Shown piece by piece: positions 7,264-7,413 of a stretch of DNA of 44,176 bases (positions are counted from its first letter, which is position 1; each line of letters starts with the position of its first letter). The notes below the pieces were generated by a model. That model had not been told where the DNA came from and did not search any database. It was given only the letters and a program-made list of their open reading frames with translations. Made by a program: the position numbers and the translations under genes. Origin of the DNA: a virus; the IMG/VR virus record IMGVR_UViG_3300026509_000003, positions 1 to 44,176 of that record; one strand, given 5' to 3'.

Positions 7264-7292
7264 TTGACAAAAAATTTTTAGTAGATTATAAT
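7264..7292 (+). promoter_or_regulatory. perfect consensus promoter
   Basis: TTGACA at 7264-7269, 17-bp spacer, TATAAT at 7287-7292: both hexamers and the spacing match the sigma-70 consensus exactly. Start expected at G7299. Confidence 0.9.
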
Positions 7293-7298
7293 AAAGAT

Positions 7299-7413
7299 GC
7301 CATCGTAAGATGGCGGGACGAGCATACCAACCACACTCGTAAAAACAAAAAACCCTTAGGAACGGGTGTGGTTCGCAGAAATGCGGGTCATACTCGTCCC
7401 TAAGGGTTTTTTA
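7299..7413 (+). ncRNA. compact structured RNA of about 115 nt with its own promoter and terminator
   Basis: Starting at the predicted first base, GCCATC-GTAA-GATGGC (7299-7314) makes a GNRA-capped hairpin. GGGACGAG (7315-7322) pairs with CTCGTCCC (7393-7400) and closes a junction of two hairpins. One is the 12-bp stem 7329-7340 with 7362-7373 (one G-U pair). The other is CGCA-GAAA-TGCG (7374-7385), again GNRA-capped. ACCCTTAGG (7352-7360), inside the loop of the 12-bp stem, pairs with CCTAAGGGT (7399-7407) before TTTTTTA. This makes either a pseudoknot or an alternative terminator stem that competes for two bases with the closing helix. The next gene starts 38 nt later behind an AAAGGTCG box, so it may be a free RNA or a switch-like leader. 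Confidence 0.75.

Follow-up and report, generated by a model that had tools for sequence, protein, structure and literature searches.

The 44,176-base virus record analyzed here over its whole length (the window) carries, just upstream of a gene for an O-like replication initiator (rep), an RNA that is genuinely structured and that, on balance, we read as the leader of rep and a cotranscriptional on/off switch of that gene. Its central feature is a pair of interleaved helices in the order A-B-A′-B′, with strand B lying in the loop of helix A:A′ and its partner B′ following A′. By inspection, this topology was seen directly 5′ of rep in 13 of the 31 leaders compared (the window, L028, L029, L032, L037, L038, L039, L044, L045, L057, L067, L068 and L069), and in two subfamilies both helices are kept by compensatory change. 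The leader probably sets the amount of replication protein made.

Table 1. Features of the rep leader and its surroundings, in window coordinates
Feature	Position	Strand	Basis or remark
Promoter TTGACA-17-TATAAT	7264..7292	+	sigma-70-type consensus, 12/12 matches
Leader RNA, predicted transcript to terminator	7299..7413	+	folding; both ends predicted
5′ hairpin GCCATC-GTAA-GATGGC, 6 bp, GTAA loop	7299..7314	+	both folds
Strand A of closing helix A:A′ (GGGACGAG)	7315..7322	+	compact fold (RNA 7299-7404)
12-bp stem, 5′ strand	7329..7340	+	compact fold
Terminator hairpin; U-run 7407-7412	7347..7412	+	fold of RNA 7299-7413
Strand B (CCCTTAGG), within loop of 12-bp stem	7353..7360	+	folding and interleaved-helix scan
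12-bp stem, 3′ strand; in the upper terminator stem it belongs to the 5′ half	7362..7373	+	
GAAA-capped hairpin, 4 bp	7374..7385	+	both folds
Strand A′ (CTCGTCCC)	7393..7400	+	compact fold
Strand B′ (CCTAAGGG), terminator 3′ arm; 2-nt overlap with A′	7399..7406	+	
rep gene, O-like replication initiator	7452..8321	+	PHROG 678, E 9e-9; PHROG 18020, E 1e-7
Four direct repeats (TTCGGAAAGTG) within rep	7817..7887	+	possibly iterons or an origin
YrlA-like Y RNA, just upstream of Ro60	9490-9610	+	41.4 bits, E 9e-7; Rfam cut-off 69
Ro60 gene	9626-11020	+	TROVE, E 3e-27; Ro60 vWA, E 9e-10

A first-pass annotation of this DNA had described a self-contained structured RNA under a perfect promoter, just upstream of the replication gene, its coordinates (7264-7413) taking in the promoter as well as the RNA. 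The promoter does match the consensus at every position, with a predicted start 7 nt past the -10 box, at the very base where the GTAA-capped hairpin had been said to begin. Promoter, RNA, terminator and rep follow one another in tandem, with 39 nt from the terminator to the ATG. Since so short a gap leaves scant room for a promoter, we prefer a rep leader to a self-contained RNA; that the RNA is structured and promoter-driven stands. The rep product also matches Pfam Phage_rep_O, though too weakly to reach the cut-off (E 0.00095). Like the direct repeats within rep, those of lambda O lie inside the gene.

The RNA from 7299 to 7404 folds at -49.4 kcal/mol (z -8.2, 0/200 shuffles as good) into a three-way junction, in which the closing helix, extended by AU/ACC pairs, encloses the 12-bp stem and the GAAA hairpin, as had been described. 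When folded to 7413, the RNA instead forms a 14+16-bp terminator hairpin with a GAAA loop and a U-run (-57.4 kcal/mol, z -9.25, 0/200 shuffles as good), and positions 7318-7322 of strand A pair with 7336-7340. This hairpin had been overlooked by a pattern scan because the scan accepted only uninterrupted stems with loops of 3-8 nt. The proposed pairing between the loop of the 12-bp stem and the terminator strand is borne out by the complementarity of CCCTTAGG and CCTAAGGG, a layout that recurs before related rep genes. In prefix folding, a 9-bp part of the 12-bp stem appears at length 72, the minimum-energy fold includes the whole stem at lengths 76-106, the junction is closed at lengths 100-106 and the terminator hairpin is present from 108. 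The suggested competition between a compact fold and termination is thus also predicted by nested folding, with the compact form persisting to a 3′ end at about 7404 and giving way to the terminator hairpin from about 7406, a flip that is partly imposed by the method because nested folding cannot score pseudoknots. An Rfam search of the window gave no family at gathering score, in agreement with the view that the leader matches no riboswitch that can be named; at E<=10, the leader gave only hairpin matches far under cut-off, the best being mir-586 (E 0.0033, 29.5 vs. 89 bits).

The leader could not be followed by its own sequence. A blastn search of phage and plasmid collections with the leader RNA gave short, weak matches and no convincing homologue. 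Nine loci in viral contigs matched a DNA pattern made of strand A and part of the 12-bp stem; they were rejected as chance matches with unrelated folds. We therefore turned to rep, gathering relatives through this gene and then comparing their leaders. A tblastn search of phages with Rep gave no match; the Rep-like matches among prokaryote genomes came from genomes of about 0.7-1.3 Mb, presumably Patescibacteria. Near-identical copies were dropped (L019, L020, L027, L047 and L048 in favor of L028; L031, L049 and L051 of L029; L030, L046 and L050 of L026; L043 of L025; L082 of L081; L064, L072 and L074 of L039, with L064 and L072 collapsed in the alignment as identical rows), as were repeat retrievals of loci already in the set and the partial matches L041 and L076. 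This left 31 distinct rep loci including the window, 30 of which entered the main scoring run, with L081 scored separately. Among these loci, no relative's leader resembles that of the window in sequence. Three parts of the window leader are likewise not general among rep leaders, namely the 5′ hairpin with its GTAA loop, the GAAA hairpin and the three-way junction; by eye, only the window, L029 and L045 show a 5′ hairpin.

To score the topology, a script sought the best interleaved helix pair within 150 nt and compared it with 100 shuffles. No shuffle was as good in seven leaders: the window (also 0/60), L028, L029, L032, L044, L045 and L067. The script's A is the 12-bp stem in the window, and in L028 it is longer than the strand listed. 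One shuffle in 100 was as good for L037 and for L057, and two for L039. Counts for L069 (1/100) and L068 (5/100) refer to a scored pair partly or wholly unlike the one counted by inspection, and L038 was not significant (23/100). The lowest counts among the other 17 scored leaders were 3 (L025, L026), 4 (L075) and 5 (L060, L061) of 100, and L081 gave 39/100.

We also compared rep leaders with other intergenic leaders. Where the gap ahead of rep was at least 90 nt, z was <= -4 in 7/13 leaders and <= -2.3 in 10/13; among 73 control leaders from 33 loci, these values were reached in 1 and 8, respectively. The 13 were the window, L028, L029, L032, L038, L042, L044, L045, L057, L067, L068, L069 and L075. 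The window was kept because the ORF overlying its leader (84 aa) is under the control's 90-aa limit, L045 is a locus without an upstream ORF, and L037 and L039 were left out, their gaps being masked by overlapping ORFs. No such leader was seen at 18 of the 31 rep loci, in most of which the gene abuts the upstream CDS. The locus placed nearest to the window on the Rep tree, L042, has a long gap, yet lacks such a leader. On this tree, a quick one with long branches, the leader is scattered (13/32 rows, 7 changes vs. a shuffled mean of 10.4), a pattern that fits loss and repeated gain alike.

Compensatory changes were counted in two subfamilies, each of three distinct sequences from which the structures had themselves been read. 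In L067-L069, whose Rep N-termini are 88 and 93% identical to the first, a 5-bp hairpin (P0), A:A′ and B:B′ are paired in 57/57 cells, and both sides have changed in 7/19 pairs, compared to 0 in slid controls. In these leaders the P0 loop contains A, which makes A:A′ a pseudoknot contact. In L037, L039 and L057, which align without gaps, A:A′ (7 bp) and B:B′ (12 bp) are paired in 98.2% of cells, with both sides changed in 7/19 pairs (0-1 in slid controls). No close homologue of the window leader was found, and the compensatory changes come from these two other subfamilies only.

The leaders differ in the signals that accompany the helices. Of 12 leaders scored for promoters, five have one of at least 9/12 ahead of A (the window, L029, L032, L044 and L045), while matches in L037, L039 and L057 are <=7/12. 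The distance from B′ to the start codon is 15-45 nt in 11/12 leaders and 70 nt in L057; because this gap leaves scant room for a promoter, transcription probably reaches rep by reading through the leader. Nested folding of 12 of the 13 leaders (all but L038) gave a probability of A:A′ before B′ emerges above 0.9 in 8/12 (0.95-1.00 in the window, L028, L032, L044, L045, L037, L039 and L057), and lower values in L029 (0.47), L067 (0.66), and L068 and L069 (0.00). Once B′ has emerged, the probability of B:B′ is 0.61-1.00 in 12/12 leaders. Eight leaders have a U-rich stretch after B′ (the window, L029, L032, L044, L045 and L067-L069; it is short in L032 and L044), which makes termination plausible in them. 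The other five (L028, L037, L038, L039 and L057) lack a clear U-run, so termination is not common to all 13; in these five, translation is the likelier target.

We propose the following scheme, in which the control of rep by the helices, its direction and its kinetics are inferred. Transcription would begin at the consensus promoter, and the nascent RNA would close helix A:A′ first, holding strand B in its loop. As B′ emerges, B:B′ pairing would create an intrinsic terminator just ahead of rep, either replacing A:A′ or joining it as a pseudoknot. If A:A′ lasts long enough, the polymerase would read through and Rep would be made; if B:B′ wins, a short RNA would be released. Relatives that lack a U-run have their B:B′ hairpin shortly ahead of the start codon, where it may affect translation instead.

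The released RNA could itself be the product that matters, acting in trans in the manner of the P4 CI RNA (for example in copy control or immunity), with rep expressed by leak only. A 12/12 promoter followed by a strong terminator may indeed simply yield an abundant small RNA, and the letters of the helices change fast with pairing kept, the A:A′ columns of L067-L069 being 57% identical for Rep N-termini at 88-93%. However, the unpaired columns of these leaders are equally divergent (55%), so A:A′ is not singled out for divergence. Moreover, no target was found, and some leaders have neither a U-run nor a good promoter. We consider a trans-acting role unlikely on this evidence.

Still less probable, in our judgment, is an attenuator of the pT181/pIP501 type, thrown by an antisense RNA. 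The layout is similar, with a leader, a terminator just 5′ of rep and an upstream strand that delays the terminator (PMC5703833). The best antisense promoter, however, fell within the range of 40 shuffles in 12/12 leaders (sigma-70 consensus only), and no promoter above 9/12 was found on the minus strand between 5000 and 10000 of the window. A metabolite riboswitch is very improbable: the compact junction, the two GNRA-type loops and the pseudoknot-like contact would suit one, but the window leader has no Rfam match, and the idea is disfavored because no loop sequence is conserved among leaders of the same rep family. As a separate observation, L044 gives a weak match at 1426-1506 (E 0.063, 24.5 bits vs. 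a cut-off of 38) to the translational control element Alpha_RBS.

The Ro60 gene about 2.2 kb downstream of the leader and the YrlA-like RNA beside it prompted a last reading, that of the leader as a second Y RNA bound by the phage Ro60, which we rejected as barely credible: RNA 7299-7413 has neither a YrlA match nor the (A/U)ACUUC Ro-stem element of the hairpins flanking phage ro60 genes, and the rep relative G004 has the leader with no TROVE match, in a record that may be a fragment.

The Ro60 region has features of its own. The YrlA covariance match spans 9503-9604, and relatives L012 and L013 have both Ro60 and a YrlA-like RNA. Small hairpins lie beside phage ro60 genes on the coding strand, with (A/U)ACUUC directly after the 5′ stem strand; that of the window is at 9406-9453 (+). 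In relatives, the motif starts at 5931 and 7553 (L013), 5411 and 5586 (L014/L018), 5911 and 7717 (L015), 5902 and 7690 (L016), and 5907 and 7727 (L017), with one hairpin upstream and one downstream of ro60 in L013, L015, L016 and L017. These hairpins are possibly minimal Ro-binding modules, in a search that gave 5-12 chance matches per shuffled window.

Elsewhere in the window, about 690 nt of structured non-coding sequence at 6361-7050 (+) follow a promoter-like site at 6327 (z -4.5 vs. 20 shuffles; no match in an Rfam search). A possible second small RNA (folding z -3.1) lies at 7086-7258 (+), downstream of a promoter-like site at 7052 and up to a hairpin near 7220-7258 that resembles a terminator. 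At 31137-33158 (+), a DUF2341 protein contains a LAGLIDADG-type domain, possibly an intein or homing endonuclease insert.

A less likely reading of the rep leader is that it represents a new class of RNA. Such RNAs would be pseudoknotted leaders ahead of O-like replication genes, carried by phages whose hosts have small genomes and are probably Patescibacteria; their topology would stay fixed while the pairing letters drift, giving each phage a private RNA address, possibly for RNA-based immunity or replication timing. A literature search of partial coverage returned no title describing such a rep leader, which should not be taken to mean that such leaders are unpublished. A widely recurring leader switch, conserved in topology before phage initiator genes, would provide a testable control point of replication in phages with mostly uncultured hosts. 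It would also provide an RNA family that is defined by the topology of its pairings rather than by sequence and would escape sequence and covariance searches.

Control of replication by leader RNAs is classical in plasmids. Among phages, the P4 CI RNA is a small RNA from the leader of a replication operon. The window leader is likewise read as a phage replication leader. The attenuators of pT181 repC and pIP501 repR, which lie in replication-gene leaders, have a terminator-like stem-loop directly 5′ of the start codon; the switch is thrown by an antisense RNA, and the pre-emptor acts by pairing with the terminator stem at its 5′ arm (PMC5703833). The window similarly has a terminator-like hairpin just 5′ of rep and an alternative pairing that prevents it. 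In contrast, the partner of A is A′, a strand inside the B:B′ hairpin (with a 2-nt overlap with B′ in the window), no antisense promoter stands out in 12 leaders, and this is a phage replicon whose initiator is O-like. Because the pre-emptor does not pair with that arm and none of the antisense promoters is conspicuous, we do not place the leader in the pT181 type. A further parallel is RCd22, the AbiF ncRNA of phage phi027, with a SigA-type promoter, an ncRNA of about 100-130 nt and a terminator, followed by a phage gene without its own promoter, and with read-through reported (PMC12373285). RCd22 contains the conserved abiF motif RF03085, and overexpression of the Abi gene that follows it slows growth (PMC12373285). 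Unlike RCd22, the window leader has no RF03085 match in the Rfam search; what it has in common with the RCd22-abiF leader is its overall layout.
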